The translations under genes were made by a program, and so were the position numbers. DNA of 64,000 nt from Fragilaria crotonensis (Eukaryota > Bacillariophyta > Fragilariophyceae > Fragilariales > Fragilariaceae), in assembly GCA_022925895.1 (NCBI GenBank), contig JAKSYS010000001.1, positions 662,434-726,433 of the forward strand, read 5' to 3'. The notes under the pieces were generated by a model. It searched no databases. It was not told the DNA's origin and saw only the letters and a list, made by a program, of their open reading frames with translations. Positions 40,402-64,000 of the stretch are shown in pieces. Every line of letters begins with the position of its first letter. Positions within the stretch are counted from its first letter, which is position 1.

Positions 40402-41083
40402 TTAGTTGCTTGGCGGCCCCACAATCGGCATCCAGCCAATAGTCAACACATGAAACCTGGCTTGAAACATTCCAAACGCTCGCTCAATTTCTTCCTTTTG
40501 CCTCCTGGGCAGGGGCAAACAACTGCATCCTTGTTTCCGAATAGAAGTACATTTTGAGAAAGCAAGCAGACCGCCCGAAGATCCCATCAGACAACCAATT
40601 AACATAACTGTACTTGTTTCCATTCAAAGTTAAGTTTACCTTTTGAGTTTTCCTTGTGACTCCATTGTTAAACAGAGGTGACCTGCTCTCAAGAATATTG
40701 ATGTCATTCCATGTTGCAGGTGAGCCAAAGTGCAAAATGTTGTTGAATGGCATCATGTCAATCCCGTATCCTGTCTCGCCATTAACAACAATTGTCAGAT
40801 CTTTAAATCTGATTGACAACGGCGCTGGAGGTTCTCTATTGTTGTTCATTCGACGATTCTCTTGCTGCTTGCGATCTTGCAGCCTTGAAGGATTGCTTGA
40901 TAAATAATGCCCATCTCTTTTTGAACAGAGGTTGCGTTTGGAAGTCCCGTGAGAATGAAAGATTTGTTTGATACTCCTGCATACTGAAGTAACCGTACAG
41001 TAGATCTCAAGCAAAAACATCCGTACAAAATGTTGCAGTAGATAGTCCTCCACTAACTCGCTGTTTCGTGGTATTGTGAGCAT
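40402..41083 (-). pseudogene. Decayed PIF/Harbinger transposase fragment
   Basis: Minus-strand frames give PATWNDINILESRSPLFNNG, VNLTLNGNKYSYVNWLSDGIF (the second catalytic block, normally GYYLADGIYP) and, after a slip near 40480-40500, RRQKEEIERAFGMFQARFHV (the third catalytic Glu block). The order matches the plant-type Harbinger transposase domain. The N-terminal DNA-binding part and first catalytic Asp are not recognisable. It is unlike the Harbinger transposase at 32-33.7 kb, so it represents another family. Confidence 0.75.
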
Positions 41084-41456
41084 AGTTTGTTTGTTAAACT
41101 CAATTGCAGGTCATAATACAATCAGCCAGTGATGAGAACTACTAACTCTCCAATCAAACACTAAAGCCTTTCTCAGTAGATTCCACACAACAAACCTAAG
41201 TCCTCTTTTCAAGTAGGTTATACCGTAATGCAGCAGACTTTCATTTCACCCACATGGATGCCTCCCTGGGTCTCTCAGAGTAACCCAGCATCCCAGGAAG
41301 TCCTCCTAGTCTTTCAGTCTTGTTCATCTTGATAATGCTTATCCATCCATCATCATATAACCCACCAGCAGCCGAACATAGACTAGAGCTACTGTCGAGC
41401 GTTGTGTACGGTACTGAAATCGATACAGTTGTACTCCTCGGCATCTCAACAGTAGC

Positions 41457-41601: not shown

Positions 41602-44600
41602 TCACGTGGAGACAAAATATGTACGAATCGACCGCACTCCTTGAATGGCTCGTGACTTAGCCCGACGCATACTGTCTCTTAGAATTTGTGCATTGACAGC
41701 AAGCCAGTTTTGATTCACCCATGTAGGTCGCTGAGCATGGTCCTGAAGAGTAGGAAGCAACAAATGCTGGATCTGAGGTTCCAATTGATGCCGCTGGTCA
41801 TATATCTCTTCTAATCTCCGGTTTACCTCTCGGCGTTCAGCTACAGCGTGTGTTTGTTTATCAACTCCGTGCACGTCAGCGTTGCGGGACTTCCAAAGTT
41901 CATACCACCATTCCCATATGACCAAGATAAGTTGTCGCTGCCATCGGGCGCCGGTTCGCTGAGCTTTCGTGCCATGTTTCTTTGGGACCACTCGTCGGTA
42001 ATAAGCTTCCTGCCTGATGCTCCATTCGTTGCTAAATCGTCCATTGAATATCTGACGCCAACCGATAACATTCTGCTGAATAATGATTTCTCGGAGCTCC
42101 GTTGGGTAAAATATTGGTGACACCGTCATATTGTCTTCCGATTGAAGCCACTGGAGCAACGCCTCTTGAAGTAAATGCCGGATTAGAGGGCTAGTCTTCT
42201 CTTGATCATGAAAAGTGTTTAAGCGTGTAAACAGTTCACGTCTCCAATTCGACCGAGCCTCTGCAGGACATCGAATGACATGATCGCGCGTTTCCCGGTC
42301 ACAAGAACATAATGGACACGTTCGTTTACCCGAGTCGATTCGATTTCGCATGCTGTGTGTTGGAAGACAGTCGTGGACAAGTTTCGAGAAATGAATGCGT
42401 CGCTTGATGGAGCTTTTCATGGCTTTGGCGTGAGCATCCCAATTAATGTGACGCATGATTGTTTCATTCAATGGTTCTTGACTTTTATATATTCGCGAAG
42501 TCCAGGAGCGGTGGCTGCATACCGAATTACTGCGTCGAAGTTTGCAGTGACCATGCCGTCGTTTAGAAGAAGATATGCTCCTGCATTGGGTGACATTAAA
42601 ACATGTGGCCGTGACATCCCAAACTCTTCCTGATAACGAGTGGCCAGCTTGTCAGCATCAACATTGAGTTGAGACATGAGTGATAATCGTTGATAAGGAG
42701 TATCGTTGTCTTGATGTCCTTTAACGTATTGGAGTCGGATATCGGGTAGTCGACGTAGGGATGCTTGAATCTCGATGAGAAGATCCCATTCAGGTGTCAA
42801 GACATCCAAGGGTTGCAAATGTGTCGCAACATACTCCAATGGTTCTTGACCTTCTTTCTGTTTCCCGAATAACCGATCTAGTAAGCTTTGACTATCAGTC
42901 CCTATCGTGCCCGTCCACTCACCAAACATTTCAGAATATTCGGCCAAACGAATAAGAAAACGAAGAATTGCCAACATGCCACTGCACTCAGCACGATACG
43001 AATCTACCGTGGCCCCCCTGGAGGGTCCGTTTCCACTTGCCATACGTTCACCCGTCGGAGCACTAATCATCCACCCAAATGCACCCTGAGTGTTATGCTT
43101 TGACGATCCATCGCAGCCCGCGAAAAAGCCATCTTGCAACTCCAGAACTGTCATCCGAGGATCATACGATGTACTCGTATAACGAAGGAGATCTTCTTCC
43201 CATGGGTCTAATTGCGCAATAAATTGTTCGAACGTTCTCGGGATAGGAAGCGATGGCTTTTCGGTTCTTTGAGTCGCTTTACTGAGAAGTTCCCACTCAT
43301 CTGATGCTTCCAGCATTCGGACGGCAACCGAGCGGCAGATCTTGGAAGATGATTATAGGATAATAGCTTTCCTGTCTCTTTTAATTTTCCATTTGTTGTA
43401 TTGAGACATTCCACGTATCCATCAACAGTCCTAATGGCCACTTTGTTCCGATACCCATACGAGAAATACTCCATGCGTCGCTCTCGATGGTCTCTCAGAA
43501 ATGGTCCGAGGGGTTGTAATAGTTTTCCCGAAGAGTTACTCCACAACCGATTCGCCTTCTTCCATAACTTCCACGTCGGCGTAGACGGTTTATCCTGGTG
43601 AATTTGAATCCATCGAGTACGACTACTCTGCAAGGATGGGGCCCCTTCCACTTTAGACAAATCAAGATATGTCCCATCTACCGTCACCAGATCTGAAATA
43701 GTAACCACTTGAAGGAATAGACGACAGTAGTTAATGCGTCGGATCTCACCTGCCGTGAACTTTCCAGAATGAACAACCCAATCCATTATAAATGAATCAT
43801 GTTCACGTTCTAAGTGCGGAACGATTCCCGAATCAACATGAATACTCGCACGAATGTTTGCCAAATAATGACGCAGAGAAGCTATCCACTTGGAATCAAG
43901 GTGAGGAAGTGGGGTAGTAACGTCTTCGAGAATAGATATCGAGATACCCGCAGCATATTGACACCATTCCAACAAGATCCTCAACATATCGCCCACTGGA
44001 GTATTAGATCTCCAGTGACGAAGAAACAGTCGAATCTGTCCAATACCTTGTTGATCGTACAAGCGTCGAAAGTTTGATCCGCCGTATTCAAGAGGACCAT
44101 ACAAGATTTCTCTCTTCATGTTACGATTGTAACCACACTTTGCAAAAATAATCGACATAGCCTTGCGTTGAATTTGTGTTAGCTGCCGTTCAGTGAAATG
44201 GGAATTTGCCAATGGATAGCTCATACTTGGTAGATAAGTCGCGAAGTAGAAAGTCCATGATTCCTCACGAGTGAGATTTGTGGACCACAGAAAAGATGTT
44301 AACTCCTTACTTTTGTCCTGTAATTTCTTGAATTGCACTCGTTGGGTACCCGCAGGCTCTTTATAGTGTCCAAGAGTTTTATGCGCCTCATACGTGGACA
44401 AGTATTGGAGTTCTTGGTCTTCTCCTGCCAGTGCATCTGGGACCGTGACCGTACCATAATTTTCCCGATCGTTGTATAACACCGGCGAGCCTGATGCAGT
44501 GAATTTCCAGGTTAGGACATGATAGGAGCATTTAGAGTTCGAGTGATCCCCAGATACTGCCAACAATCTCGACCAAGCGGTTGCATTCGCTTTCATCTTC

Positions 44601-47507
44601 TGTAAGATTTGTTTCGGGGTATGTATCGTTTCTGGATCTTCAAATGCGTTCGTTTGTCCATTCGAATCGTCGACAAAACCTATCATCCCCAGTTCTGTTC
44701 GCCTTTCTCGATTTGGACTAAGATAGGCTGCTTTAAATGCGACTTCGTCATAACAATCATATAAGATACTTGACAAGAAACACCAAATGACTGGAGAGTT
44801 GCCACTACCCTGTCCTGTTCCGTATATTGGCTGGTCTGACGTATGTTGATAACCTTCCGTTGCAAGTCCCAATTCAGTACGAATCCGATAATCAGTGTGC
44901 TCTAACGTTCGTGCATTGGACAATGTAACTTCCGGGGACTCGAATCTCCGACTTGCCAACATAGCCAGATTGGGAATGATCCTATCGTAGCATGCGGTCG
45001 CATCATAATTAGTAAGTATCATAGTTTTCCGAGTGATACGTGACATTTCCAGTTGCAACTCCTCAAGAAAAACAGGATCAATAGCAGTCCGTTTCGGTCG
45101 CGAGCCGTACTGTCCACTGTTGAGTTGATCATATGCCTCCGCCTGTAGCAACGCAGATCGCCATTTCAAACCCAGCATCAAGTTGTAATCCGCCTCATAA
45201 ATGTGTATGATTCGAGTTCTGTGAATCTTTATATTCCCAGGCTCTTTGAATAAGACCGAATTCGCCACATTACGCCATCTCATATATGAATACCCACGCT
45301 CCAATGCATAGTTCATCAAAATAAGATGAACTCGGAGAATCTCGCTTTGCATGAATGTGAGTGCTTCGCGTTGTTGTTTGTGCTCCTCACTTTCATCTTC
45401 AAGTATCTCGGAGTAGGAATGCTTTGCAATCATTGCCTTGTAATGGCCTAGATGCATTCTGGACGGTGAGGTCACGGTAGACTCACGCCAAGCTTTCAAC
45501 TTTCCAACATAATCCTCTTTACTTATTGTAGGATATACTCGCATAGACGCGAGCTCGTCGGATATCTGTAAATGCTGTATCACTCGTTGCACGTCACTAT
45601 CCATCCCTGCTGGGTACTTGTAGCGACCGCTGAGAATATGATCTGCTTCTGGACCGTCACCGCAATATCCTAACTGATCACGCAACGGCGCTACCGTAAA
45701 CGGTGTTCCATCTGCCTGTCCAAAATGGCGACGATTCCTCTGCCGCAATTGCTCAATCACCTCCGTAGGAACATCAACTTGTCTCCACTCAGTACACGTT
45801 TTGGGGTCCTGGTCTGGGTGCACCGGAATTTCTATCCTGGATATTCCACTTCTCTCACTTTTCTCCTGAAGACGGCGAAGCTTACCAAACAACCTGTTCA
45901 ATGCCTCTGCTTTATGCAATTGCCGTAATACTTTGGCCTGTGCATGATCTTTACTTGATGTGGAGGCTTCGAGACACGTTATACGACTCATTCTTTCGCT
46001 GTCCCGACGTCCGTATTGTTCTGAAATTATGGATCGTACTTGCTGACGCGCCTCTTTTAATTCTCTGGTGCATTCTTTCTCTGTCACAGGTGGATCATTT
46101 GCAAGGCCAGCCTTGCTCCATGCAGTGCGGATAATAGCTTCATTGTTCAGACGAGTTTTGCCATCGACAGACATTTTGTTAATATCTGCGCTTTTGTCTC
46201 GCTTTGTGGAGAGCGACGGACCATGGCGCTGTACCAACTCGTTGAATGGATTTTTCTGCCGCAAGACTTGCTTCAACAACATCTTTATCCAACCTCTCGG
46301 CAAAAGCATGTCGATCTCCTAACCATGTCAATTGATCAATTCGTCGGAAAACATTATGATCTTCCAAAATTTTATACTTCCGTCGAATGTACGCTGTTAC
46401 TTGTTGGCGATGGTTGGAGCGGAGAATTCGCGGTTCCAATTTCGAGAGAGGCTGGATCATGGTTCCGAATAGACTCGTGACAGAGAAATCCACAAAGTAT
46501 GGTCTATGATCCGTGGTATATCTTGCGTTAAACGCTTCATATCCTGATTTGCGGACGGATTCCACAACCTTGGGTGTGGCAAGCGCATAATCCAAACATC
46601 GTGAACCTCGTGCATATGTTGCCGGCAACGTCGTTCGATGATGATGTCGCATAATATCAATCATACCCAAAGCGTTCATGACGCTTATCATGCCATCCGC
46701 TTCGCACCCGATCTCTTCATTAAAATCCCCCACCAAAAGAATCTCATGACCTGCCTGGCGACATTTTAGAAGGTATTTTTGAAGATCGCGCCGAAAAGCC
46801 TGTCGTGGATGTATAACGTCATCTTGCTCTTGGATGAGAAGGCTGTGTTGTTGTGAAGCCGCAGTGGTAAGACCTGGAGGGGAGTCTGTGACAACTTGGT
46901 ATGCTGACACGATAGTAATTACACTACCAGCACTGCCTAGGAAAGACTGGCTTGTCCAACGTCCCCATTTATCCCGAAATCGGTCTCGAACACGAGCACA
47001 CGTATCTCCAACTGTCAATACAAACGTTCCTCCTGGTTTATACATTCTCTGAAATTCCATTGGCGTGGTACTAAAATCAAGGCGAGAACGTTGCCAGTAC
47101 TGTTGTGTCGTATGATACAGTGTACTACGAACATATGCCTTTGTGGTATCCAAGTTGTGTTCTTGTCCGCATGACACATCGGCTTGCACTTCTTTGAGCA
47201 CTCGACAAAACATATCATACTGACCTCCCATTCGATCAAGTGTAAATCCATTCACATTTGCACAATAAACCCGAAAAATATCCTCTCCTTTGTCCTCCAA
47301 AGCGTCTCCCCATTGTACATTTGATTTCATATTAGAGTGTGTTAGGAAAATTTCCCGATTGACATTGGATTCGCTATGGCCACGTTCCGCAGCGAAGAGT
47401 CTTTTCCATGCCGCTTGAGCTGTTGCAAGACAAGCAGACTCCTGTGGGGCATTCTGGTTGGGTGCCAGAACACCCCTGTTCACGTTTACCTCGATGGGCG
47501 CACTCAT
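41602..47507 (-). pseudogene. LINE ORF2: APE endonuclease-RT-RNase H-zinc finger, three frame breaks
   Basis: Four successive open pieces. 46179-47507: AP-like endonuclease with ANVNGF, CGQEHN, LLVGDFNEE, RCLDYALAT and TTDHRPYFVDF. 43208-46309: reverse transcriptase with TNYDATACYDRI, GTGQGSGNSPVIWCFLSS and catalytic IGFVDDSN. 42468-43316: RNase HI with AGCDGSSK, RAECSGML, IGTDSQSLLD, KGHQDND and NVDADKLA. 41602-42471: zinc finger CPLCSCDRETRDHVIRC and a tail. The frame changes lie near 46190 (an AAAA run), 43325 and 42480. Each junction reads naturally after a one-base correction, so the protein was once continuous. All catalytic residues persist. Confidence 0.88.
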
Positions 47508-47512
47508 TTTGA

Positions 47513-50068
47513 CTACATAGGATTGGTCAGCCCACGAGATTCCGATCGGGCCAACCGGGTTTGATCCTCTTGATTAGGATATATCGCCTCTAGTCTCATC
47601 TCTGTGTGAGGTTCGGCGCTCGGGATCGACGTTTGTCGCGTATCTTGGTGTTGGGATGCAATATCTTGTAGCTCATCGCTACTAATGACGTCATCAGCTA
47701 GAACTCCTGGCGTTGATTCGTAATAAGAATGATGAATGGATGATTGCTCTCTATCGTCGGCAATTTGGCTCGAGTCAAACGACAACTCTTTGCTGCAATC
47801 GTGCAACGGGTGACTGGGATGGTCCGGATACATCGGGCTCGGGGGGTCTTGCACGTAGGGATTTTCTGGCGTCCAGACTGTAGAACGATGAGTTGACCGA
47901 GATCTGAACTGCTGTGTCGCTTGTTCTTCTGACATGTCTGATTCGGATTCTGCAGTTTCGGGAGGTAAAGAAGCATGCGGAGGATACATTACTGGAGACG
48001 CCTGTTGTTTTGCAGGTGATTCACGAATAAATTGCCGTTTACGGCCGCTCGTCAATCGCCTACCACGAACGTCGTGCACTTCCAGGTCATCTTCCGTGGT
48101 ATCGGCATGTTCACTGGCTCTTTGTACTGGATTAATTCCAACATTAGGAAAAGATGTCGATTGTTGCATCATTTGCATCACCATCTCGGTTAACATTTGC
48201 ATGTGCCGATTTTGAGCTGCCATAAACGTCCGAAAATCTGAGTCTGAATTTTGAGCAATGAATGATGTTGGCTGTTGACTCGGTCGCTGCTGGAGTATCG
48301 CTTCTACTTGCCGTGTGATTCGCGTATCCATCTCTTGCTGCTGAGTTGCAACTTGACGTTCAAATTCCTGTCTTTGGTTCGCCAATTGTCGTTCCATCTC
48401 CATACGCTGTTCTGCCACCTGACTTTCAAAAAGACGTTGTTGATCAGCCGCTTTACGTTCCAACTCTCGCTGTTTATTTTCTGCCTGACGTTCAAGCTCT
48501 AAGGCTTGTTGTTGCAGTTTTAAATCCATTTCGCGGCGTTGATGCTCGGCTTGACGTTCAAGTTCACGTTGATAAGACTCTTTCGACACTTCGAATTGAT
48601 GCAACTTCATTTTGAGTTCCTCTACTTCTGCTCGACTTGACGCCAAGTCAGACATGTACTCTTCATCGTATGTGGTTTGCGATGTGGAGGGTGCTTCAGA
48701 AACCGACGCTTGACGAGAGGTTCCCTTGACTCGTTGTGCCCATGTCTTCGAACGGGAGCTCGATCGATCACTTGGTTCTTTGGCTGTCAAGTCAATAATA
48801 GACGGTGCATTATCCGATGCTGAATCCTCCGACATTGTTGCTGCGTACGACATTGCAGTGTTGATACTCGATGACAAATAAGTACCTTCGCCACTAGAAT
48901 ATCCATCAGAAAACAACGGAGCAACTTCGGGGTCACGAAATCGCTCATTGATAAGTTTTGCATCAGCAGATACATGGGTTTCGAACCAATCTTGCAGTTG
49001 AGATATAACACTGTTTCGAGCCTGATGAAAGGCTGCCTTATTCACCAACACTTTGTGACGTCCATCGTGTACAACATTTGAACCTGCAATAACATCTCTA
49101 ATTCCAGGAACCGCTTTGATATGATCGGACATGTAATACATAGCATCTATACTCACGTTGTTCATGATGAAAACGTGATTGTCGTGCATGTGCTGTGTTT
49201 GTTGTCTGATAAACCGAACATAGGCCTCTGGATGCTTAGATCTCAATTGAAATGGAACGAAGTCATGTGTATCGCTATATGCGCGTTTCAACGTCTTCAG
49301 CAATTCCATCGAGTCCAGTTTTGAGGTTTCGATTGCATATGCTTTCGTCTTGATGGTCTTCCCGCGATGTTTGATCTGTGGAGTGGTGAAAGCCAATTGA
49401 AACTTTGGAATTTTTGTCCGGGCCGGCAATTTACTCTGTATGTCTTGTCGCAATTTTTCGGTTGCGGTTGCGACGTCATAAAACTGTGGGTCTAAGCCCA
49501 TGACAAATCCAAGTTGAGTGGTATCCCAGATATCCTCGGTCCATCGGTGCTCAGTAAGGAAGCAGTTGTTGTCTCGGAGAAGACGATACACTTTAGGTAT
49601 GTTTTTGATTTCGGAAAGGGTTACAGACGTCCGAATTCTGTGAATAATCAACGCGGAACCTTTCGGAGATGCGATATACTTCTGGTGTTCACCTTGGACA
49701 GTATCTCCGACTCTAGATCTTGAATTGGAGTGATGAATTTGAAACTGTTTGGAGTGCTGCCCTATGGTCCACCTCATAGTGTCTACAATAGGCATGGTTT
49801 GCCCATTGTTATTCATGATCTGAATATCTGCACCACAATATTCTTGGACTGCTTGAATCCAATGAAGATGGATCTTGGACGGCGACACTGGTTCTCCATT
49901 GTTGTTCAGAAGAAATCGGAATTTCACTGTTTTCTCGACAAGGTGTTGGACATTTGTCCTTCCACCACGTCCACCGGGTGGCGTAACATCTGAGGCATCG
50001 TCTGAGATTCCTCTCACAACCGATGGTACACTCCCATCTCTGGGAGAGCCGATGGGGAGGTCGGTCAT
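47513..50068 (-). CDS. LINE ORF1 protein (coiled-coil, gag-like)
   Basis: An 851-residue open frame. Residues 1-45 are a short acidic/Gly-rich head. About 45-370 is a folded-looking region with no domain known to me. About 500-620 is a long coiled coil with repeated QRELER, AEHQRREMD and ANQRQEFERQ heptads. Then follow a Met/Gln-rich segment and a Pro/Ser-rich tail with a basic patch (GRRLTSGRKRQF). No CCHC knuckle is present. LINE ORF1 proteins form trimers through a coiled coil and coat the element RNA; this shape fits that role. The stop TAG (47513-47515) lies five bases before the ORF2 ATG, suggesting reinitiation. Confidence 0.8.
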   Translation of the reverse strand: MTDLPIGSPRDGSVPSVVRGISDDASDVTPPGGRGGRTNVQHLVEKTVKFRFLLNNNGEPVSPSKIHLHWIQAVQEYCGADIQIMNNNGQTMPIVDTMRWTIGQHSKQFQIHHSNSRSRVGDTVQGEHQKYIASPKGSALIIHRIRTSVTLSEIKNIPKVYRLLRDNNCFLTEHRWTEDIWDTTQLGFVMGLDPQFYDVATATEKLRQDIQSKLPARTKIPKFQLAFTTPQIKHRGKTIKTKAYAIETSKLDSMELLKTLKRAYSDTHDFVPFQLRSKHPEAYVRFIRQQTQHMHDNHVFIMNNVSIDAMYYMSDHIKAVPGIRDVIAGSNVVHDGRHKVLVNKAAFHQARNSVISQLQDWFETHVSADAKLINERFRDPEVAPLFSDGYSSGEGTYLSSSINTAMSYAATMSEDSASDNAPSIIDLTAKEPSDRSSSRSKTWAQRVKGTSRQASVSEAPSTSQTTYDEEYMSDLASSRAEVEELKMKLHQFEVSKESYQRELERQAEHQRREMDLKLQQQALELERQAENKQRELERKAADQQRLFESQVAEQRMEMERQLANQRQEFERQVATQQQEMDTRITRQVEAILQQRPSQQPTSFIAQNSDSDFRTFMAAQNRHMQMLTEMVMQMMQQSTSFPNVGINPVQRASEHADTTEDDLEVHDVRGRRLTSGRKRQFIRESPAKQQASPVMYPPHASLPPETAESESDMSEEQATQQFRSRSTHRSTVWTPENPYVQDPPSPMYPDHPSHPLHDCSKELSFDSSQIADDREQSSIHHSYYESTPGVLADDVISSDELQDIASQHQDTRQTSIPSAEPHTEMRLEAIYPNQEDQTRLARSESRGLTNPM

Positions 50069-50153
50069 GGTCAGTTTCGTTCAGTACAAAACCTACCTAA
50101 GATTCACGTAGAAATTAGTAAGGGTCTTACAATTTTTCCTAAGTGAAAATTCT

Positions 50154-50171
50154 ACTGTAGCACTCAACACA
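50154..50171. repeat. Right copy of the 18-bp LINE target-site duplication
   Basis: ACTGTAGCACTCAACACA, identical to 41457-41474. It lies 86 bp upstream of the ORF1 start. Confidence 0.85.
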
Positions 50172-52122
50172 GATTCACCAATAGAAGAATTACTCTTACC
50201 TGCAATCAGCTTGGTTGCTTTTTGAAAGCCATCTTGAAATGGAGGTTGTAAGTTGTAAGCAGTGGTCTGTGTTCTCTCGTTTTGCCTCCAACCTTGCGAC
50301 GCTGGCCTTGTCTTTTCCTTGGTAAAGTTGTCTTGGCGGTTGTTTTTGAAGTGGAATGCTATCCTGCTGATTGCTGTCTTCCAGATGATCATTGTGCTTG
50401 TCGTGCTTGTCCACTGCAGCAGCATCAGACCATCATAGGAGCTGCAATGAGGATGATGACGACAAAGGCTTTGTCAAGGGGGGGGATGTCAATGTTGTTG
50501 CTGTCCCATCCTCTTCACAACCAGAGGTCTAGTACAAGAACATCAATGACCATTCCCTCCTTGCTCATCATGGTGCTGGGTTTCTACGCAGTGTTTACTT
50601 AGTAAGAATGCAGTTGCTGTGTTGTTAGGCTGGTGCCTTGTTGGAGATTGCATGCCCTGATTGTTTCACCAAGGTGAACCAAGCTTGTTCACTTTAATCT
50701 GCAAAAAATAGCATTACAGATTCTTGTTTGTGTAGCACAAGATTCCTTAGCAAAACTTCGACATGAAATGCTACCAAAATTCTAGCTAATCAAGCAATTT
50801 CAGACATCAGCCACTCTTGCATTGAAACTTTCCGTCTTTATGGCATTGTCATGATATGACTTAAGTGCTGGTTGTCCTGCTTTGTATGATAGCTGGGTCA
50901 TCATCAAAATGTTTTGCTGTGCCTTTTGCTTTCTTGAACACCGGGTCCAGTGGATGGACCATACAACACTGCAAAGTCTACTTGGTGCGAACTTGGCTGG
51001 TATGCGGCTTCGTTGCTCTTCCTTTCCCTTATACATACAATGTGAGGGAAGCGACACAACTGCAATTATTTATGGATAACCGATTGCATGAGAGCAATTA
51101 TCGCAAAAGTAAAGAAGCAGACTTCTCGTCTATCATTTCACAAACAGTGCCAGCCAACCGAGCAATGCAGACGACCTGGGAATCATTTGAGCTGAGACAA
51201 CAGCACTTCGAAGGCTGATGAAACCGGTCTAGGTGAAAGGTCATCAAGGATCAAACAATAGACGTGGTGGCAATAGCAACACTATCAACAAGTAGTACAA
51301 TCGAGCAGACAATATGGCCATGACAATATCATGGCATCATAACCAAGGCTCAAGACGGTAATCTATAGAACACACAGAACAGAACACACTGAACAAGCAA
51401 GACTCAATCAAGGGGGTACATGTTTTGGGCCAAGAAGAGGCCTCTATGAGATATAACATAAACGGATATTACCACCTTTGGAAGTTCATACAATCACAAC
51501 AGCAGTGGACTGATCCAGTGCAACATATGATCAATCTCGAGTTACTCGGGGATTTCTGTCCTCGTCTTTCGATTCGGGCGCAGGTCGCCCATACATAGAT
51601 CAATCTCGATCAATGGTGTAGTAATGGTAACAAACGATCCCGGGTGGCAACAATCAAAGCTGATACAATAGTAGGTGTATGCCCTTGCTGCAGGAAGCAT
51701 GGTGAGTCACCGCAACATGGCCTTTGTTGTACCGACAACTCCACACTTTAGTGAGGCATTAAAGGAACTAGCAAAACGACTGACGCCGTCAGAATTCCAT
51801 CTTGCGTTTCCGCTACTGAAACAAGAGATCATGGCAAGGTTTGCGGGAAAAGCCTATGAGCCTGACCTAACTGGCTTTCCGCAAATTCCATGACTCTACT
51901 ATTACGACAGCGCTCGCGGATCAAGAGCAGATTGGGTGGCATTAAAGGGTGTGAATGACCTTTCAACTCAAGAGGACAAAGGTATTTATACTCTAAAAAC
52001 ATCCTGACTCATGTCCAACAGGCAATACAGATCATTTGGAAAGCTTGCAATAGTAATGCACTGCACAACTCCTCCGGGGAGGGTCTTCAAGGCATCAAGA
52101 TCTGGAATTTGCAGAGATTAGG
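50172..52122. other. Region between LINE and giant element, short relic frames only
   Basis: 50196-50425 on the minus strand encodes a charged, His/Gln/Lys-rich stretch (KEKTRPASQGW) that may be a relic of the element into which the LINE inserted. 51675-51893 on the plus strand is a 72-codon frame (FSEALKELAKRLTPSEFHLA) of ordinary composition and unknown origin. Nothing else could be supported. Confidence 0.35.
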
Positions 52123-52524
52123 AATACCTCAGAGGGTTCCGGGTTGTACACCTACCATATGGTGGTAACTGTAAAATATTTTTTTGAGTCCGGTACAGAT
52201 TTGTACCATGGTTTTTTTGTGTATCAATTTTTGGTACACCTGAACAAAATAGTACTCCCCTACTAATTGCGTACCACAAAATGGTACAAAGGACTAATGT
52301 TTTTCGATTATAGTACAGCCTTGTCACACTGACTGTACAGTGTGTCACATCTTTGATCATGTGATATCTATGTTACGCTCTCTTCTTTGTATTCCATCTG
52401 TCACATTCACCGTACAACACACCATCTGATTGTACCGATGTACTCCCAGTAGTGCGTCTCTGTGCAATGTGTCCCTATAATGACAAAATTCTATATCGTG
52501 AGCATTTCATTGTTCTTGTTACAA

Positions 52525-54229
52525 TTACAATTCACAAAACGCCTCTACTGCTTCAGGCATAACACGCCGTCTCCCTCCTTCTTCCTCGGGGTCTCTCAGA
52601 ATGTCATTGTCCACGCGATCTCCAAATTTTTGTCTCCTCAATGCAAGGAGCACTTCTTCTTCAGCTTTCTTTGCATTAGCACTCTTTCTGTCCCTATCTA
52701 CAAGCATCGACAATTCATTGAATCTCGCAACTCCCTCCGCACTCCACCCTCCATACAGGCAGTGATCCATTACCGATGATGTGTATTTGCCCGTGATCTT
52801 CGTATCAGCCTTCTCGCCACGGCGTTCTGTGTGATACCGTGTTATCCATTTTTCAATGTAATTCTCGTAAAGGAGGAGAGCAAAAGCCTCATCAGACACT
52901 GTTACCACAAGTTCTTGACTTCCCTTGTCCACAACAGCTTCAGATACCCTGTAATAGTACTTTTTCCTCCCCCAAACTTTCTTTCCCGACACACATGCCA
53001 GAAACTCCCCAATAAACCACTGAAATGCTTTCTTGTCAAGTTCATGTTCTCCTTGCCTCAATTTTTCAAGTGTCTGCATTGAGTATGGTGGGTTAAGATC
53101 ATCTGCGTTGGCGTAATCAAGTTGACGAAGTAGTTCCTTGACAATCCTCCCACCTGCCTGCTCACAGGTACTTCTCTTGCCATTGATGCTGCCAACAACA
53201 CATGTCTTGTATATCCTCACAAATTCGTCCTCGTCATCTGGTTCTTCAGTTTCAAGAACAATCTTCATTGCTCTATTGAACATTGCCTCACTCGTAATGA
53301 ACTTCATCTTCCTGAATATCATTCCCTTTACAACGACTTGAATTCTATCAACGATGTGCTTCTTTGACTATCATGGGCAGTTCTGTATGACATAGCCTTT
53401 TTCGGATATTATCCTCACCAGTTTGTCCTCTTGATCGACGAGACAGAGGACCGTCATCGTCAGTCAAGGAAAATCCTGAATCATAACTGGATTCACTTCC
53501 AGACAAAGAAGCCTCATCCCTCCGACTCCATCGTCCTCGAGATCTGGCGCTACCACCTTCCCGCGGATGACAACGGTGGGATTCATGGGCACGTTGACGT
53601 TGCCACAATCTGTCAGCAGGACGACCTCTAAATGGAGTGTCATCCTGCACCTGATCATTACCTCTAAATGGAGAGCGATGATCAGGTTGACAATTATGTC
53701 GATGCCAATCATGAGGATTGTTTCGATATTGTCGAGATCCTGGGTTGCCACCTCTAGATGGAGAGCGGTGCCGATCATGAAGACCACCTCTAAATGGAGA
53801 GTGGTGATCAGTTGCGTTACCACTAGCTCCAGTGGGAGATTGGCTTCTTGAGTCATCAGTCCGTCCTTGATTTTGCTGGTTCCGCTGTCTCTCTTGTATT
53901 CCTTGTTGATGTTGGTGAGAGCCTTCATTACCACCTCTACTAGATGGAGAGTGGTGCCGAGCATGATGACCACCTCTAAATGGAGAGTGGTGATCAGCTG
54001 CATTTCCACTACCTCTAGTGGGAGATTGGCTTCTCGAATGATCTACCTGGTCTTGATTTGGTGCATTTGGCTCTCGTTCATTTCTTCCTTGTGCTGTGCC
54101 TACCTGACCTCCTTGTTTCTCTTGCCATTCTTGCCTCTTGTCCCTCCTATCCTCATTCGGGTCCACGTTCTCTTCATTTCCTTCATTGTCTTCACGTGAT
54201 CTCCTCTTCCTCCCTGCCATGATTCTCAC
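52525..54229 (-). pseudogene. Accessory gene of the giant element (repeat N-terminus, conserved C-terminal domain)
   Basis: Two pieces, 53348-54229 and 52525-53322, in different frames. The second frame is open upstream of its Met (HIVDRIQVVVKGMIFRKMKF) and continues naturally from ELPMIVK in the first, so a one-base slip near 53365 divides one gene of about 565 residues. The N-terminal half is basic, Arg/His/Ser-rich and disordered, with repeated SPFRGG, HHSPFRG and SQSPT units. The C-terminal half is a folded domain with FITSEAMFNRAM, VVTVSDEAFALLLYENYIEKW and LYGGWSAEGVARFNEL. A diverged relative is at 12600-13489. No known function; a DNA- or RNA-binding partner of the transposase is a guess from the basic N-terminus. 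Confidence 0.65.
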
Positions 54230-56408
54230 TCAGGTGTGTGATTCCGTGTTGCACAAAGTGATTTTGTAATGCTCTCCTACATGTGCTCGTGCTCCTTATA
54301 TTTTGTGTTGCTGCGCCATGTTTTCAAACACATCCACAACCAAATTTCAATATATTGTATATACATTACTAGTGCTTAACAATTTGTACATACATCACAA
54401 AGGCTGGTTGTACTTGTAATTCATATTTTATTCGTACTGATTACATTTCTATTCGTATCATACTACAAAGTGGTATGTAAATGCATTTCCGTTATGTATC
54501 CAAAAAAATGATAGTGTCTGCATTTGAATTTTTTTAGTCGTTCAAGGAATGCTGGTTCGAGTGCCTAAGAAGTATAGTACATTAGTCACAGTGAAGAACA
54601 GTACTAGTACACTTGTACCGTGTTCTTGTACTAGCAGGTACGGCGGTACTAGCATTGTTCATGTTCAGTGTAGTATGTACCTGTAGAGCACACTGGATTG
54701 TGCATGCTGTATTGCTGTATTGCTTTGTTCAATACGATGATAGTGTACGTATTACGTACCTGTACGTAGTTAAATTGTATGCATACACACAACGCTGTGC
54801 GAGCCGTTGGTCACACTGTACGCTGTAGTATGGCGAATGGCGATACTTCCTGTCACGTCGACGTTGACGCTGTTGTGCATTTGTACTGCACGTCACACCA
54901 TGCTTGCGCAGTATAGTACGTCAATGTACCACATATCAGTGCTGGTCTAAGTACGTTTGCATTACATGTAATTTTTGCGTGCGCTGTGACGTATGCGTGT
55001 ATTTTGACCGGGTCACGATGTGGTGATAGACTCTGTATCCGCATTTTACACCCTATCGGTCTCGTGTTACTACGGTGACGTTTTTCCGTTCCTCCATGTG
55101 TTTTGGTGGCAGTCATGCGAAAAACATTCGTGTAACTGCACGGTGAATAGTGCATATGATGCAACGATCGTGTCCACTCGTGTTTTTGCATGTATTAAGC
55201 CTATATACATCTGAATATATAACATTACATACAGTGTTTTCTTACATGCATTTTCGCCTGTATTTAAGCTAAAATCATCACAATATATATACGTTGCATG
55301 CGTACAATTAAATATAGTCTTTTCTATGTACACTTTACACACAAAAAGAAAATTAGCATACGTATTTTCTTAGTCTTACAAATTGTATGATCGAAAAGTG
55401 TAGTCCCAGGTAGTGTTTTGTGGGACTTTATTTCTTGGTGGACTTCTATGTCCTATCATTCCTATAGTGCGCGCATGCAGTCCCATTTCACGTCATGATG
55501 CTCGTGCGATAAGAGCAGTGGGAAGTGCACAAAACAGTCTCGAATGCGTGTTGATTGTTTCTTGCATCAATCACTTCGATCAATCGACTTCCATTAGAAG
55601 CCTTTGATCGAACTGTTTGATACCCGATCTGACTCGGGTTGTAACAAATACCATTGTAAGGAAGTAGATGCTCCGCGACAAGGACCTGGTGCCACATCAT
55701 TCTCTTCTAGCATTTGACTTCCATTAGAAGCATTTGTCTCGAAGTGGAAGATAGGCAACCTGCATCGATCAGTTTGAGCATTTGTCTTCAATTTGAAGCA
55801 TTTGTTTTCAAGTGTTGTACCTGATCGGACTCAATTTGGGACAAGTAGCTAACCGGCACTCCTTTGGGACAAGGAAGATCTGGTCTGCGAGGAGGTATTC
55901 CGCATCGATCTCTTTTAACAATTGTCTTCCATTAGAAGCATTTGTTTGGAAGTGTTGGAAACGGATTCTGACTCGAATTGAAACGAGAACTTGGTAGCAC
56001 TTGGTAGCACTTCGTGATTGACACAATTCTCAAGGACTACGAGTTCCTGGTTTTGCAGCGATCACTTTGTACAACAGTCTTCCATTAGAAGCATTTGTTT
56101 TGAAGTAGCTGTCATTTGGAACAGAGGGAACCAACTGCGATTGATAAGGATTGGCGACCACCACCAGTGAAACTGTAGTAGCTGTGGTAGGGTGTTCTCA
56201 TTGTTCACGCACTGTCACCTTTGACAAAGCAACTCTCACCATTAGTGGAGTTGCTGTGAACTTCGAGACATTCTTTGGTTTCGAAGCCTACAGTAGGGTT
56301 GACATTACTTTGAACTGGCTCACCATTTAGTGGTCATTTCTTGGTTGGTGTTTTTCTTTGCTTTGGCACAGTTCGAAGTTGTTGCACATCGTGACTACCA
56401 TCGGTTAG
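54230..56408. other. Non-coding interior of the giant element, with repeat array
   Basis: 2.2 kb without a supported gene between the divergent accessory gene (minus) and dioxygenase-like gene (plus), so it should hold both promoters. 54590-54830 is rich in GTAC words. 55587-56105 contains the repeats listed separately. Confidence 0.5.
55587..56105 (+). repeat. Dispersed 19-bp repeats in the promoter-side region of the giant element
   Basis: CTTCCATTAGAAGCATTTG or a close variant occurs near 55589, 55719, 55784 (CTTCAATTTGAAGCATTTG), 55926 and 56074. Each copy contains the inverted arms CTTC/GAAG. A second motif, TCTGACTCGGGTTG-like, occurs near 55628, 55829 and 55966. They end about 300 bp before the plus-strand gene, so a role as binding sites is possible. 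Confidence 0.7.
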
Positions 56409-59400
56409 TTGGTGCAGCACTGTCCGTTCCTGCTTTGTGTGCCTGTGTTGTGCACTACTGCCATACGCCCTCCCATGTCCCACCAAACTAAAGCCCATTC
56501 TATATGGGGTGGCGGTGCTGCAACAACAACAAAAGGGCTGCAGTATCGAGTTGGTGCCAATGTGGTTGGTGAAGTCGTGCGGTTCCGAACGTTTCCGAGC
56601 GAAACGTCCCGTCGTCTCATGGCAACTATGGCTTTGGCCATGGATATGCCCCGTGCTCTGATGAAGATGGAGGGTGGGGCTGTTGGGCATGTTGACATCC
56701 CACACGATTCTCCTGATGATGTCTCTGATGCTGACTGGTCCGATGCCGAATCGGAGGGCGGAGTGGAGGATGTGGAGGAGGTGGACGATTGGCTGGACAA
56801 CACCAAGGAGGGGGGCAAGAAGAAGCAAAAGCCTCGTACCATTTTCCATCCGTCGAAGATGCAGATGGCACGCACGATTTCGAAGTGTCTACCGAAGCAG
56901 GATGTAGAACAATTTGAACTCCTTTTCAAAACATTTCAAGGTGTTACGGAGTGTCCGTCTGGATGTGACAATTGTGGAACTGATGTCAATGCATTCATAA
57001 TCAAGACTAGAGTTGGCTGTATCGATACTCTGGGCACTTCAGCGTCTATACGGTGTGGGAATGTGGATTGTGAGATGTGTGATCAAATCAACAGTGACCA
57101 CCGGGATGGCAAGGTTTTCTTGAAACGTGACTATCTTGAGATAGTGATGATGGACGCTGTGTTGTCCCGTGTCTTGAATGCCCCAAGGCGTGTCAGCCAC
57201 TGGTAAGGAGACTGTTGACACACCGGTCAAGTTCAGAGCTGAAAGAGCAGAATATTTGGATGCAGAATTTGACTGGAGGTTTCGTGCCTTTCTTGCTGTG
57301 GTTCCTGATGGTGCAACGTATTATTGCCACCGTGATCGGCGGAACCGGGTATTGGGAAAGCAAATGAGGTTATTCCCATGGACACATCGTGGCTACGGGT
57401 AGTGAAGAATGTTGATCGTGACAGCAGTCGGTTTGCTGATGGCGGATATGTTTCTCGACTCTGGGATGGGCAACCATTCTGGAAATTCAAGATCTCGCGA
57501 GGTGAAGCGAATTTCCAGTTGAATCCCATTCCAGAAGAACCTGTCATGAATTTGTCCTGGAATGGAACCCTTCCGACGCTGCGTGTCATGTCAGCATATC
57601 AGTGTCCTGATGAATTGGGTCCATGTCTACCCCCCGATTTCATCAATGGAGAACAACATGATGGTGCCCAAAAAAAGGCACACCTGAGGCGTGTTTACAG
57701 GATGGCTCTCATGAGTTCGAAATCTGCGAGACGCGGGTGCCGTCACTATGCTCATGGCTATCTTCACCGCAAAATTGACCCAAATGAAACCTTGATCATA
57801 GATCCCGAGGATGGTGATATTGACATCCGGGTGGCCATCCAGATAAGACGTCCACCTTCGAAGGCAGACGCTAAAGATCCCACTAAGCATTGCGTTGCTC
57901 TATCTCGTGAGTCTGTGGTGCTGGTCCGTTACTTGCCACACTTGGGAAGCGGTGCCGAGAAGCTATTATCCAATATCAGGGATCACGCAAGTACTGTGCA
58001 AGGCCAAAACAAGCACTCTGCAAGGAACGGGCTTGGTGATCATGGTTCCATGTTTCCTTTGGGTTCACGCATCATGAAGGACAACATCACAAGAAAGCAG
58101 TATGTGACTTCCACGAGGTCAAAGCGGGAGCAGCGGTTATTGAAAGGGGCTGTCGTTGCATGCTCCAGGCTAGCAGCTGTAACCATCCCAGGAATTCTTC
58201 GGATTATGCAGGATGCTGAAGAAGATGGTGACATTCCTCCCCCTCACGGGGGAATGAACGGCGACTGCATGTTTTGTCGAATCTCCCATACAATGGATGT
58301 CAGTGTTGACCTTTCGAATTCAACTCACTATGATGTCAACGATGCGTCCCAAGGTTTTCCATTTGGACTGAGGATGAACCTGGAAGTACTCGCAATTGGT
58401 TCTTTATTCTCCTAACGTTTACGGCAAGAGGCCTGACGGTATGGGTGGGGAGAAGGGTGCGATGTTCCATGGAGTTGCTATTAGGCTGACCCATGGAGTT
58501 CTTATCAGTTGGGATGGTCGGGTGATTCGTCATGGCACATCGGTGATGGAGCGGACTAAACATGTGTATGGATCATTTTTTGCGGCAAAAGGTTCTGTTG
58601 TTGCATATGGCGCGCGTATGGCTTTCAGGAAGGAAGCCATCAGGCGAAGGCGATCGAAGCGGCGACAACGACAACAACGACACGATGGGCCTGGTGGATT
58701 GTTGATTTCTCCTGCGATCAGTGGATGTCGTGACAAGGACGATGGTGTGGATTTGTTATCGATCCCCATTGCCAGAAAGAGTAAGGCTTTCGGGGATTCT
58801 TCTCTGGTTGAAGCCAATGTGCTGGGAAACGATGATACGGATGAGGCTTTGGGCGATGATGTCATCTGTGGCAACGGCATTCTGGGGGATGACAATTCAT
58901 CATGGAGTAACCACAGCTATGCTGATGATGTCAACGACTCCACAAGTTGTGACATCGGCATGATACTTGACTTGACACCTGGAGGTGGACATGGATTGAT
59001 GGGAGGGCTCATGATCGATGTTCCGGATGATGACAGTTCTATTGAGAGTGACGCTCGCGATGACGGCTTTCACCAAGGTCGTCGTCCCCCAAATGATCGG
59101 TATGATAACTTGCAGAACAGAGGCCAGGAATATCCCTCTCCGAATGATGGGAAGAGACGATGGAATGACTTTTGCACTGACAGGGTTTCCAGTTATCCTC
59201 ACAACGGCGGCTTCCAACATGGACATGAACGTCGTCGTCCTCCGAATAATGATCGGTATGATAACTTGCAGAACAGAGACCAGGAATATCCCTCTCCGAA
59301 TGATGGGAAGAGACGATGGAATGACTTTTGCACTGACAGGGTTTCCGTTATCCTCACAACGGCGGCTTCCAACATGGACATGAACGTCGTCGTCCTCCGA

Positions 59401-60018
59401 ATAATGACCGGTATGATAACTTGCAGAACAGACAAGGCCAGGAATATCCCTCTCCGAATGATGGGAAGAGACGATGGAATGACTTTTGCACTGACAGGGT
59501 TTCCGTTATCCTCACAACGGCGGCTTCCAACATGGACATGAACGTCGTCGTCCTCCGAATAATGACCGGTATGATAACTTGCAGAACAGACAAGGCCAGG
59601 AATATCCCTCTCCGAATGATGGGAAGAGACAATGGAATGACTTTTGCACTGACAGGGTTTCCCGTTATCCTCACAACGGCGGCTTCAACATGGACATGAA
59701 CGTCGTCGTCCTTCGAATAATGATCGGTATGATAACTTGCAGAACAGAGACCAGGAATATCCCTCTCCGAATGATGGGAAGAGAGGATGGAATGACTTTT
59801 GCACTGATGGGGTTTCCCATTATCCTCACACTGACGGCTTCCAACGAGGACATGAACTTCGTCGTCCTCCGAATGATGGTTACTTCCGTGGAGGACAAGA
59901 ACATCATTCTACAAACCATGATTCTCTAAATGATAGAAAGAGGGCCTGGCGTGGTGATTGGCAAATCAGTCATGGTGATCGTGTTAACACCAGGGGGGGA
60001 TGGCATCATCGCTCATGA
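56409..60018 (+). pseudogene. Cargo gene with Fe(II)/2OG-dioxygenase-like core and tandem-repeat tail, several frame slips
   Basis: Pieces: 56409-57206, 57178-57402, 57378-58415, 58396-59360 and a repeat tail ending at 60018. The N-terminal part has an acidic linker, a basic KKKQK patch and a Cys cluster (CPSGCDNCGTD, then CGNVDCEMC). The centre has RRVYRMALMSSKSARRGCRH and a MFPLGSRIMKDN block. The core has THYDVNDASQG (HxD at 58326-58334), then in the next frame FSIWTEDEPGSTRNWFFIL, then in a third frame HGVAIRLTHGVLISWDGRVI with RHGTS (distal His at 58531-58533) and an Arg seven residues later. HxD and distal H about 68 residues apart with a following Arg fit a double-stranded beta-helix dioxygenase. 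The tail has five copies of a 52-residue hydrophilic repeat. The enzyme call is inference. Confidence 0.6.
59085..59890 (+). repeat. Coding tandem repeat, about 156 bp x 5
   Basis: The word GGTATGATAACTTGCAGAAC starts at 59099, 59255, 59410, 59568 and 59726 (spacings 156, 155, 158, 158), followed by a degenerate sixth unit. In frame it encodes 52 residues including YDNLQNRDQEYPSPNDGK, RRWNDFC and HGHERRRPPN. The units are nearly identical, but the spacings change the frame from copy to copy, partly at a TTTCC/TTTCCC run. Confidence 0.9.
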
Positions 60019-60258
60019 TTGTGGGCAACGGATGGGTGATAACATGCATGTACGCCAACATATGTACGCGCGTTGAGTCACTGGACGGGTGCAATTGAGT
60101 GAAGATGATTCTGACAATGTGGATTCTGATGATGGTTGGTAGTAGAGATGATTCGTATAACTAATTTATTTTGTACGAGACAAATTGATGCATAGGAATT
60201 CTACCAAGCTGATTACATTGACACATCAAGAGAGTCCATTGGGTCTGGCACTGATCGG

Positions 60259-63200
60259 TCAGTCTTCCTCTTCGGAGCTCTCAGCTACTCGATCGAGAAT
60301 CGTTTTCTCATACTGCCAGTCGATGAAAGATGTCCAATTGTCTGCCCATTGATCACGGCGGCGGGTCATGAAGATGTATGGACGAAAAGGATGAGTGATG
60401 CTCCATGCATTGTGCATCCCATAATTACGTGATAAGTCGGTGATGACAACAGTTGGTCCCACTATGGAATCCACTTGGATGATATACAGTTTTGGCAAGT
60501 GCCATGACTCAGGAAGCAGCGATAGTCTATATGACTTGAAAATGGGAGGATCTTTCTCCTCCATGACTTCAGCTGCATCTGCTGCTGGTGTGACTCTGGC
60601 TGCAACTTGGTTGCGTAGTCGCTTCTTACGACGGCGCTTCCTTGGAGAAACATGCATGGAAAGCTCCTTTGCAGCCAACTTGGCTGCCTTCTCCGCCACG
60701 GTGTCAATGGCATCATAAGATTGCACGATGATGTACAAACCTGGCTCTGGGATGAACGCAGATTGATGGGGGAACTTGATTTGGCAGTTTGGTTTCAGGT
60801 TATGAAGGTTGACAATTGAGAGAATTCTAGCTGGGGTGGCTATGTCATCCCAGTCCACAAGGCATGATCGTACCAGGGCTTGTCATCATACTTGGGGTGA
60901 GCACGGTACAGTACACCTTTCGGGCAGGTATACTCAGTTTGACATGCAAGGGTAGGAGGTTCCACAGACGGGAGCAAGTAGTCGACCATGGTTTGCAGAA
61001 CATGCTTATCGATTATAAGCTGAGGCGGAACTTCGTTTGCTTTCTTCCTGTCATTGGATCGCCATGAACATTGGGCAACGCCAAGGGGAGTTGTGGAAAT
61101 GGAATAGGACTTTCCAATCCATGGTCGGCGAACGCTGTTTCCTTCACCAATGAAGTCATTCTGTACGGTAACTTCGGTGGCAACCTGTCGATTGGCATGT
61201 GAGATGGCCAAGTTCTCGGCATAGCGGTGTGCCGCCTGAATCTCATAAGTTTCATTACGCTTCTGTGTGTTCTTGACGGTCTTCTTGGCGATTGGGATGT
61301 GTGCAGATTCAGCATACGCACTATTGAATATCTCAGGAACCCCAAAGTTTTCAATGTCCTCTGCCATGTGAAGAACCAAGTGCATCTTCACAGTATTGTT
61401 TTTCAGGCCATCATGTCGAGGTGCCACAGTCTTTAGCAATCGCAATAGATATGATGTTGCATAAATTGACCTCTTCACGCAACGACGGTCAATCTGTGGT
61501 TGCTTCATCCATGCCCACCACTCCAACAAGGAGGAAAGGAGAAGCTTCAATCGGCAATGAAGTTGTCATGACCGGGATGCTTGTCTACCTGACCACCTTG
61601 GACAGCTGATGCCCTTGCCCTATCAAAACCTCTCCATAGCGGGTGGTTTCAAAAGCGAGGAGCATGATCAGGAGAATGCCAGCATATTCGTGGCCTGGGA
61701 TGTTGGAAGCCGAGGAAAAGTCATTTGTTGTTGTACGTGGAATGTTGCGGTCACTCTGTCTTACCAGCTGTGATGCTATGTCTTGACAGAGTCGACTGTA
61801 CTTCCTGCCAGACACACTAGTCTGGCCAATTTGTTTGAAAAAGGATTTGACAACATACTTAAACCAACCAAGTAACACAAGATGTAAGATCTCGCCAGGA
61901 CAGGCACCGAAGATACCACGATCAGAATGCGCTCCAAATCGGACCTTGTCAAACGCATTTACAAGCATGTGCTGAGATTTTGATTGCAGAACATCAAAAC
62001 TCTTGGCGTGGACAAGTCTGTTGATCGCCAGGGGCTTCCTCTTTGCAAACTGCCGACCCTTTGACCACCCGCTTTTCATTGTGGGACACTCGCAAGCTCG
62101 GCATAACTGTGCGACACCACCGGTGCGAGACTTGTAATGACCACAAAGTGCATCGTGACCCTCTGTGTCCCCTATTATGAAAGGAATGTAGGGGTGGAGA
62201 ACTGTGGGGTACGACTTCCCCCTGTACTGTATGTTCCACTTGATGCCCCGCTCTTGCAGTGAAAGAAAGCCTGATTGTTGGAGGATGAAGTTGATTTGCA
62301 TGTGATACTCGTTTACTTTCCATGTTGCATTGGTACATCTCTTGTACATGGGAAGAGGAGCACTTGCGGCGAGTTCCACAGCAATGCCAGGTTCTGCGGG
62401 CTGAAGATCCTTTTTTAAGGGATGGATATACCCCAAAACACGCATTGCCTCAGGTTTCTTCCGAACATCATGTTGCATGAGCCCATACTGCATTGTAATG
62501 GGTTCCAATGGCAAACGGCCACTTCCACCAACATCACATATTGTCTTGTCGATTGCCAAAGGACATGCAATCAACATATCATGTGGGTTCTTGCAAAGGG
62601 AGCTGTGGGTTTTGAGATACGATCGACCAGTGTTTAAATCTCCGATTACACTACCATTGGGAACTGCATATGGATCGTGGTCGGGATTCCAATCACCGTC
62701 AAATATGTAGTTTGTGTCAGCATTAAGATGACGACAGGACAAAAGGTCAGCAAAAACAGCTGATGCGCTGAAATAAGCAACTCTAACTGACACGTCAGAA
62801 TAAGGAAGGTAAAGTGTCTCCCATACTGGGATCAGCCTATCTCTGTTGAGACGCTTTGTTACCCTTGACAATACTGTCTTTCGAGACGTGATTGCAGTGT
62901 CACGGAAAACGTGACCGCTGCGAACAGAACGATTGGTCCATTGCATAATAGCCTCGTATGCCTTCATTGGGGCACCAAGGTTGCTAAGTGTTTGAAGAAG
63001 ATCAATCTGAACCTTCTCCTCACGGGAAAATAGAGAAAGGTTAAGACCATTGTCGTTGACGGAATCGATGTGCTCCTGATAAGCTACCAGCATGGAAGAG
63101 TCGGAGCATCTTTGTCCTCAGATTCTTCCGCGGAGGATGCTGTTTCAAACTCGCGAATCGAGGAATCAGGAGCATCTTCTTGGTGGACTTCGCCTAAGAC

Positions 63201-63650
63201 AGTGGGTGTCGCTTCGTCATCCAGGACAGGGAAGTCATCACATGGGTTCTCTGATGCGGTACCAAAGTCATTAACCTCACCACGTTGTTCAGGCGTGATG
63301 GTGAGGCTATGACTGTCATTCCTCGAAACTGGGAAAATGGAGCGGCGAGAAGAACTCCGATGATGCAACTGCCTGGGGTGATGATCAGAGTCAACACCAT
63401 CGGAGTCGATATCTTTGGGGTCTGCTGTTGTATCCTCTAATCTCTTTCTACGCTTCCTGCGTCTGGCGTGGTTAGTGGCTGGACGTTTTCGTGAGCCTTC
63501 GATATCAACAGAACACTGGGGGTAATGGGAAAAATGACGTGACATCTGTCCGGCCTTGACCTCTCGACCACATGAGTAGCAGCGCTCCTTCTCTGGGGAT
63601 GAAAAGAGATGACTGCGCTTGCGGATACTTTGAGTGTGGTGTTCATTCAT
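60259..63650 (-). pseudogene. Transposase of the giant element (CACTA/Plavaka-like), several frame slips
   Basis: The start is the Met at 63650 (MNEHHTQSIRKRS), just before a zinc finger CYSCGREVKAGQMSRHFSHY ending in a further Cys, and basic and acidic linkers. Frames change near 63090, twice near 61555-61600, and near 60850. The core has YIFDGDWNPDHDPYAVPNGS, IIGDTEGHDALCGHYKSR followed by LCRACECP (D-x2-E ... C-x2-C), GACPGEILHLVLLGWFKYVV, KMHLVLHMAEDIENFG and FNSAYAESAHI. The last three correspond to the PPEILH, KIHLLxHLxxDI and FSTExFE blocks I know from Plavaka/CACTA-type transposases. The C-terminal region is rich in basic residues (SPRKRRRKKRL) and ends with an acidic SSEEED tail. The superfamily call is moderate; a KDZ-like relation is the alternative. 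Confidence 0.68.
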
Positions 63651-64000
63651 TGTTGGGGATGCTTTTGCATACAATAAACATAGGAAGGGAACATACACAG
63701 CAATACAATTGAAAGATGTACCGTGGTAGCCATCAGATTGAAAAAGGGATACAAATACGTTCCGAATGTGGAGGCGGGAAGCATCATCTTGGGGTACCTC
63801 AGTGATGTGTTCAGAGATAGTAGGACCATACATGTGCATCACTTCAAAAATTTGAACGACATCCAATTTATAAATAGAAATGTAAAAGTATGTCCATATC
63901 AGGAAAAATTGATACAGAAAAGTGTATAGATAACATACGAAACTGTTCTAAAGTATACCGTCTGTGTGTGGGTGTAAAACCCGCAAGGTTCTGAGGTATG

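Follow-up and report, generated by a model that had tools for sequence, protein, structure and literature searches.

The 64-kb window analyzed here (64,000 nucleotides of Fragilaria crotonensis contig JAKSYS010000001.1, positions 662,434 to 726,433, numbered below from its first base) closes with an 11.9-kb region in which three gene units lie between inverted repeats. This arrangement raises the question of whether the region is one transposon carrying its own helper genes or several insertions that happen to adjoin. We favor, with moderate confidence, a single degenerate CACTA-like cut-and-paste transposon encoding a DDE transposase, and we are less sure of helper roles for its two cargo genes. 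This reading is preferred because the ends resemble each other more than shuffled DNA does, a 13-bp word recurs at similar depth inside both ends, and the transposase-like protein has its motifs in the order typical of the CMCT clade. On balance, a genuine CACTA-like element, now broken and carrying unusual cargo, is likely.

Paired ends and a transposase-like gene

A preliminary description of this DNA proposed imperfect 32-bp inverted repeats 11.9 kb apart, and they are present exactly where it placed them. Twenty-six of the 32 positions pair (81% complementarity), with 11,812 nt in between, and a shared arm pattern allowing up to three mismatches matched only these two sites in the window. 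Since the repeats of a transposon must sit in its non-coding ends, shuffling was restricted to those ends. Local alignment of the non-coding end pieces (1024 x 350 bp) gave a score of 23, as high as none of 2000 shuffles (maximum 19), and when the comparison was widened to 2 kb x 2 kb, 0 of 1500 shuffles reached that score (maximum 20). An earlier test with 200 end shuffles had the same outcome, and of 50 comparisons between the end pieces and unshuffled pieces taken from positions 1-50000, the best scored 18. Further in, the 13-mer TGTATCAATTTTT is found near the left end and, inverted, near the right; a word of at least 13 common to both inner ends arose in 8 of 2000 shuffles of those ends, and the first 12 bases of this one occur once more, at 28595. 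Between the repeats lie the three gene units of the preliminary description: an accessory gene (-), a dioxygenase-like gene (+) and a transposase-like gene (-), none of which is a single intact open reading frame (ORF).

Read through its frame breaks, the transposase-like gene specifies 1132 positions, including four X, in which D368, D495 and E782 are the candidate catalytic residues. In the CMCT clade (CACTA/EnSpm, Plavaka, Transib), a DDE transposase carries C(2)C and H(3-4)H between the second D and the last E (PMC12730594), and the read-through protein has both, as C517/C520 and H758/H762. The whole D-D-CxxC-HxxxH-E pattern appeared in 9 of 2000 shuffled transposase cores, a figure that is descriptive only because the spacing windows were fixed after the protein was seen. 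The N-terminal Cys/His cluster gave zinc ribbon matches of 13.2 and 16.8 bits, short of the curated threshold of 30.8. The best reading of the motif order is that the gene product resembles a CACTA/RAG-type DDE transposase, which partly supports the earlier label "Plavaka/CACTA-like". Assignment to Plavaka is unproven: in Pfam, whose profile library presumably includes the Plavaka model, the ORFs did not match that model at E 1, nor did the read-through protein and its D-D-CxxC fragment at E 10. The termini of the element, ATACC..GGTAT, agree with neither of the two described Plavaka types, TGT..ACA (type A) and CATCA..TGATG (type B) (Kojima 2025, PMC12730594). Membership is thus unsupported by profile and termini alike.

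Broken frames and the two cargo genes

All three genes are interrupted by frame breaks, which, like the repeat clusters discussed below, were absent from the preliminary description. Twelve were placed by eye on three-frame translations: seven in the dioxygenase-like gene, four in the transposase-like gene and at least one in the accessory gene. Defining a loss as one base fewer or two more, the dioxygenase-like gene shows first a gain and then six losses, the last three within 158-bp tandem repeats; all four breaks in the transposase-like gene are losses, and the one in the accessory gene is a gain. Introns were rejected by eye as an explanation of the shifts in frame, since at the junctions inspected the open frames overlap or lie no more than some tens of bases apart. 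Barring assembly errors, none of the three genes of the present copy yields a full-length product.

It is also possible that the element is intact and active, and that the frameshifts are assembly errors that escaped short-read polishing because they lie in repeats. We hold this to be somewhat less than an even prospect, and it is compatible with the other readings. In the fewest-breaks reading, the stretches joined across the 12 breaks contain no in-frame stop, but they were chosen for being open. Because random decay should produce stops as well, a share of the breaks may have been introduced by misassembly of a repeat. In the same direction, 10 of the 12 can be explained by the loss of one base (or the gain of two), in some cases at a short run of C or T, and several presumed single-copy genes in the window (flavin adenine dinucleotide (FAD) oxygenases, subtilase, PhyH) are open while its LINE-like (long interspersed nuclear element) and copia-like units are fragmented. 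This last contrast is biased, however, because the open genes were picked as long ORFs, and the Harbinger-like transposase at 32153-33595 is mobile yet open. The accessory gene, moreover, can be read in another way, at the cost of either three breaks or two stops together with a single break.

Whether the copy is decayed or misassembled, the candidate CACTA-like transposon carries a middle gene that the preliminary description called dioxygenase-like. Its read-through contains an HYD motif and, 71 positions later (two of them X), RHGTS, a pattern that is weak by itself and spans two frame breaks. A Lys, located by counting along the read-through by eye, lies nine residues beyond the second His, and the region lies within NWFFIL...GVAIRLTHGVLISWDGRVIRHGTS. 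On our reading, HYD...ISWDGRVIRH agrees with the strand order of the 2-oxoglutarate double-stranded beta-helix. We consider the protein a putative 2-oxoglutarate oxygenase, at a confidence modestly above even. A TET/JBP-like substrate is less probable than the oxygenase reading itself, and a role in editing chemical marks on DNA is a guess. The earlier label is plausible through the HxD...H pattern, and searches of profiles and structures lent it no support: no TET/JBP profile in Pfam, where we take the model to be present, and no solved structure in PDB matched the protein. Two stray matches, to RecQ_Zn_bind (E 3.6) and a laccase (E 0.048), were taken as chance.

Alternatively, the middle protein of a CACTA-like transposon could be some other structural or DNA-binding accessory protein in which HxD...H is coincidental, a reading that we find rather doubtful. 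The His-to-His distance of 71 exceeds the approximately 50 of Naegleria TET, and Lys stands at the position after the second His where TET enzymes carry Arg; both points count against our main reading, and the Lys favors this alternative. Neither the protein nor its ORFs or core gave a credible match in Pfam, NCBIfam, PHROGs, PDB or phages, and in the giant transposons of a brown alga most accessory genes are described as being of unknown function (PMC12477816). Against this alternative stand the strand order noted above and the precedent of the fungal PE-type TET/JBP proteins, which were tied to known ones solely by an HHpred E of 1.4 and predicted structures (PMC12730594, section 3.2.3). Given that precedent, the failure of sequence searches says little against an oxygenase.

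The accessory gene as a whole occupies 52525-54220 (-), and its C-terminal half had no match in PDB. Clusters of GTAC lie on both sides of it. Among 128 bins of 500 bp, the two densest, with 16 and 12 GTACs, have all of these within the element (next best 9), and the largest bin in 100 whole-window shuffles held 7. For a GGTACA-palindrome pattern, enrichment was only weak (21 against 12.1 expected, with as many in 2 of 100 shuffles), and it was set aside. Upstream of the dioxygenase-like gene, GACTTCCATTAGAAGCATTTG occurs in five copies with at most three mismatches (expected 0.00). A TnpA-like partner binding one end and a promoter could make use of such sites, much as TnpA of maize Spm binds subterminal repeats. 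Coordinates are collected in Table 1.

Table 1. Features of the candidate element, in window coordinates.
Feature	Position	Strand	Remarks
Left terminal inverted repeat	52124-52155	+	Outer 10 nt ATACCTCAGA, identical in right arm
Left subterminal GTAC cluster	52146-52443	.	12 GTAC in 52124-52483; local shuffles mean 3.1, max 8 (2000)
Inner subterminal 13-mer	52220-52232	+	96 bp in from left end
Accessory gene, C-terminal ORF	52525-53367	-	Sub-threshold DUF4847 match alone (E 0.0085, 16.4 of 25 bits)
Accessory gene, N-terminal ORF	53348-54220	-	Rich in Arg/Ser/Gly/His, with recurring HSPFRGG-like units; separated from C-terminal ORF by at least one frame break
Second GTAC cluster	54501-55000	.	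16 in 500 bp; local shuffles mean 6.1, max 14 (2000); upstream of accessory gene
Five dispersed 65-nt repeats	55555-56110	+	Share GACTTCCATTAGAAGCATTTG, imperfect palindrome CTTC-N5-GAAG; upstream of dioxygenase-like gene
Dioxygenase-like gene	56475-60018	+	7 frame breaks; HxD 58326-58334; second His 58531-58533
158-bp tandem repeats	59078-59878	+	5.1 copies; within 3' part of dioxygenase-like gene
Transposase-like gene	60259-63650	-	4 frame breaks; N-terminal Cys/His cluster
Transposase, candidate E	in 61299-61319	-	E782, 20 residues past second His
Transposase HxxxH	61368-61382	-	H758/H762
Transposase CxxC	in 62086-62103	-	C517/C520
Transposase, candidate second D	in 62152-62172	-	D495
Transposase, candidate first D	in 62533-62550	-	D368 of read-through protein
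Inverted copy of inner 13-mer	63904-63916	-	83 bp in from right end
Right terminal inverted repeat	63968-63999	-	26/32 paired with left arm

One element or several, and the surroundings

A number of observations weigh against a single CACTA-like element. When the whole of 51000-64000 was shuffled, 1 of 10 trials produced an ungapped inverted match as good as 26/32, and the window contains a longer inverted pair at another place (50 nt, 84% complementary, 14721-14770 and 40037-40086, 25 kb apart); for these two reasons the terminal repeat by itself is weak evidence. The second arm of that longer pair lies near a Plant_tran fragment (40484-41110), and the pair perhaps represents the ends of short Harbinger-type copies. 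The left-hand GTAC cluster is one-sided, with only 2 GTACs in 63700-63999 at the right end, in contrast to the subterminal clusters of classical CACTA ends. The termini also lack the CA..TG usual for CMCT ends. According to PMC12730594, CMCT ends are mostly 5'-CA..TG-3', which is not an absolute criterion, and target duplications span 2-5 bp. Here no second copy was found, and no target duplication was seen with a single base to the right of the arm: position 63999 is the last of the arm and 64000 the last of the window, which makes the right border tentative. The flanks (TTAGGA at left, G at right) fit a GA or GGA duplication, a one-in-four coincidence given the single right-flank base.

Database searches add to the points on this side. 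None of the three proteins had a match above the curated cut-off in Pfam or NCBIfam, or a credible match in PHROGs or PDB, and single-sequence structure predictions were unusable (predicted local distance difference test scores of 40.6 for the transposase core and 32.3 for the accessory C-terminal ORF). Sub-threshold matches of the element's ORFs to DUF4847, BARF1_ig2, BRF1, Herpes_UL56, a zinc ribbon and CoiA_N were dismissed as chance, as were three PHROGs of unknown function (E 0.04-0.05) and, in the transposase search, chromodomain proteins (E about 1). Six scans of viral contigs returned no relative, and neither did two of genome contigs among the candidate stretches listed, at least 81 in each; by tblastn, the oxygenase-like core had no match in phages and the transposase core none in plasmids. 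Such absence says little because the collections scanned are not made of eukaryotes. Searches for tRNAs and Rfam families in the sequence gave no match.

That there is no single element, but two or three adjacent insertions bracketed by a chance inverted pair, would accord with the shuffles of the 13-kb region, the longer pair, the missing second copy and duplication, and a window rich in mobile elements, but we judge it improbable, given that no shuffle of the non-coding ends reached their score, that the inner 13-mer sits at similar depth at both ends, and that none of the ten inverted pairs of at least 20 nt listed for 50000-64000 is longer or closer and bounds a sub-part.

Outside the repeats lie other elements, as had been proposed. 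A LINE-like unit (41602-50080, -), whose right end is about 2 kb left of the candidate transposon, has an 855-aa first ORF, an endonuclease domain (46179-47573), a weak zf-RVT match (41602-42651) and ORFs in several frames. A Ty1/copia-like retroelement (266-7335) comprises three ORFs with Pol_BBD, zinc knuckle, SH3 and RVT_2 domains. The Harbinger-like transposase mentioned above (Plant_tran/DDE_Tnp_4) belongs to a unit at 30929-33595, where its neighbor on the opposite strand is an open 345-aa ORF lacking a Pfam match. Two related open FAD-binding genes (9509-10795 and 26603-27853), together with an 89-bp piece (23316-23404) 82% like the first, suggest local duplication. The frame of an amino acid permease gene (34362-36658) overlaps another long frame at 34835-35102. 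Finally, overlapping 840-aa and 380-aa ORFs at 17245-20612 have no Pfam match; it is only our impression that the longer reads like an unclassified DDE transposase.

Relation to known passenger-carrying transposons

In maize En/Spm, the accessory protein TnpA is encoded beside a DDE transposase by alternative splicing, and the element has CACTA ends and clusters of subterminal repeats. The element described here shares with En/Spm an accessory protein beside the transposase and subterminal repeat clusters, but its partner is a separate gene, its cluster is one-sided and CACTA ends are lacking.

Transposons with passenger genes are already known from fungi and algae. The preliminary description pointed to KDZ (Kyakuja-Dileera-Zisupton) elements of fungi as a precedent for TET/JBP cargo. 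KDZ elements can indeed carry such genes, as the present one carries a putative oxygenase, but a nearer analogue is provided by the fungal EnSpm and Plavaka elements that carry TET/JBP genes (Kojima 2025, PMC12730594), and the same source describes Plavaka and KDZ transposases as unrelated in sequence. Target duplications are 8 bp in Zisupton and Dileera and 7 bp in Kyakuja. As described in PMC12730594, the fungal elements have in common with this one inverted repeats, a transposase of the CMCT type (D-D-CxxC-H(3-4)H-E) and an oxygenase-like gene alongside. They differ in their ends (CAC..GTG, TGT..ACA or CATCA..TGATG, against ATACC..GGTAT here), and the diatom element has an extra partner gene and no Plavaka or TET/JBP profile match. 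In the main text of that paper the words "algae" and "stramenopile" do not occur, and Chlamydomonas CMD1 is cited.

Giant EnSpm and KDZ elements have been reported in a brown alga; many of the families carry extra transcribed genes, and their transposase is frequently pseudogenised. Giant EnSpm elements with accessory genes are likewise in print for red algae (PMC12477816). Like those of Ectocarpus and the red algae, our candidate exceeds 10 kb, has extra genes and resembles them in its broken transposase. The cargo highlighted in that report, a ParB-DNA methyltransferase protein, belongs to a Sola-1 element (PMC12477816), whereas the cargo gene here is oxygenase-like. Keyword searches limited to open-licence papers turned up no title on an oxygenase-carrying algal transposon.

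From these features we infer a scheme of transposition, DNA binding by the partner and oxygenase action. The transposase, a DDE enzyme of the CACTA/Plavaka/RAG kind, would act on the terminal repeats by binding and cleaving them, and the partner and a probable Fe(II)/2-oxoglutarate oxygenase would be helper cargo. The two GTAC clusters, one close to the left end and the other upstream of the accessory gene, may serve as binding sites of the partner protein, in the manner of the repeats bound by TnpA in maize Spm, and the oxygenase might remove or alter methyl marks on the element, allowing it to escape silencing. More speculatively, and in our estimate unlikely on present evidence, an algal CACTA-like lineage may have gained, independently of fungi, both a DNA- or RNA-modifying 2-oxoglutarate oxygenase and a dedicated end-binding partner, forming a self-contained anti-silencing cassette.

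Epigenetic enzymes on transposons are documented as TET/JBP proteins in fungi (PMC12730594) and as methyltransferases in algae (PMC12477816). If our reading is true, finding a CACTA-like element with an oxygenase gene outside fungi would mean that this strategy arose more than once, and copies of the element would form a natural experiment on whether an enzyme of this sort shields the transposon that bears its gene.

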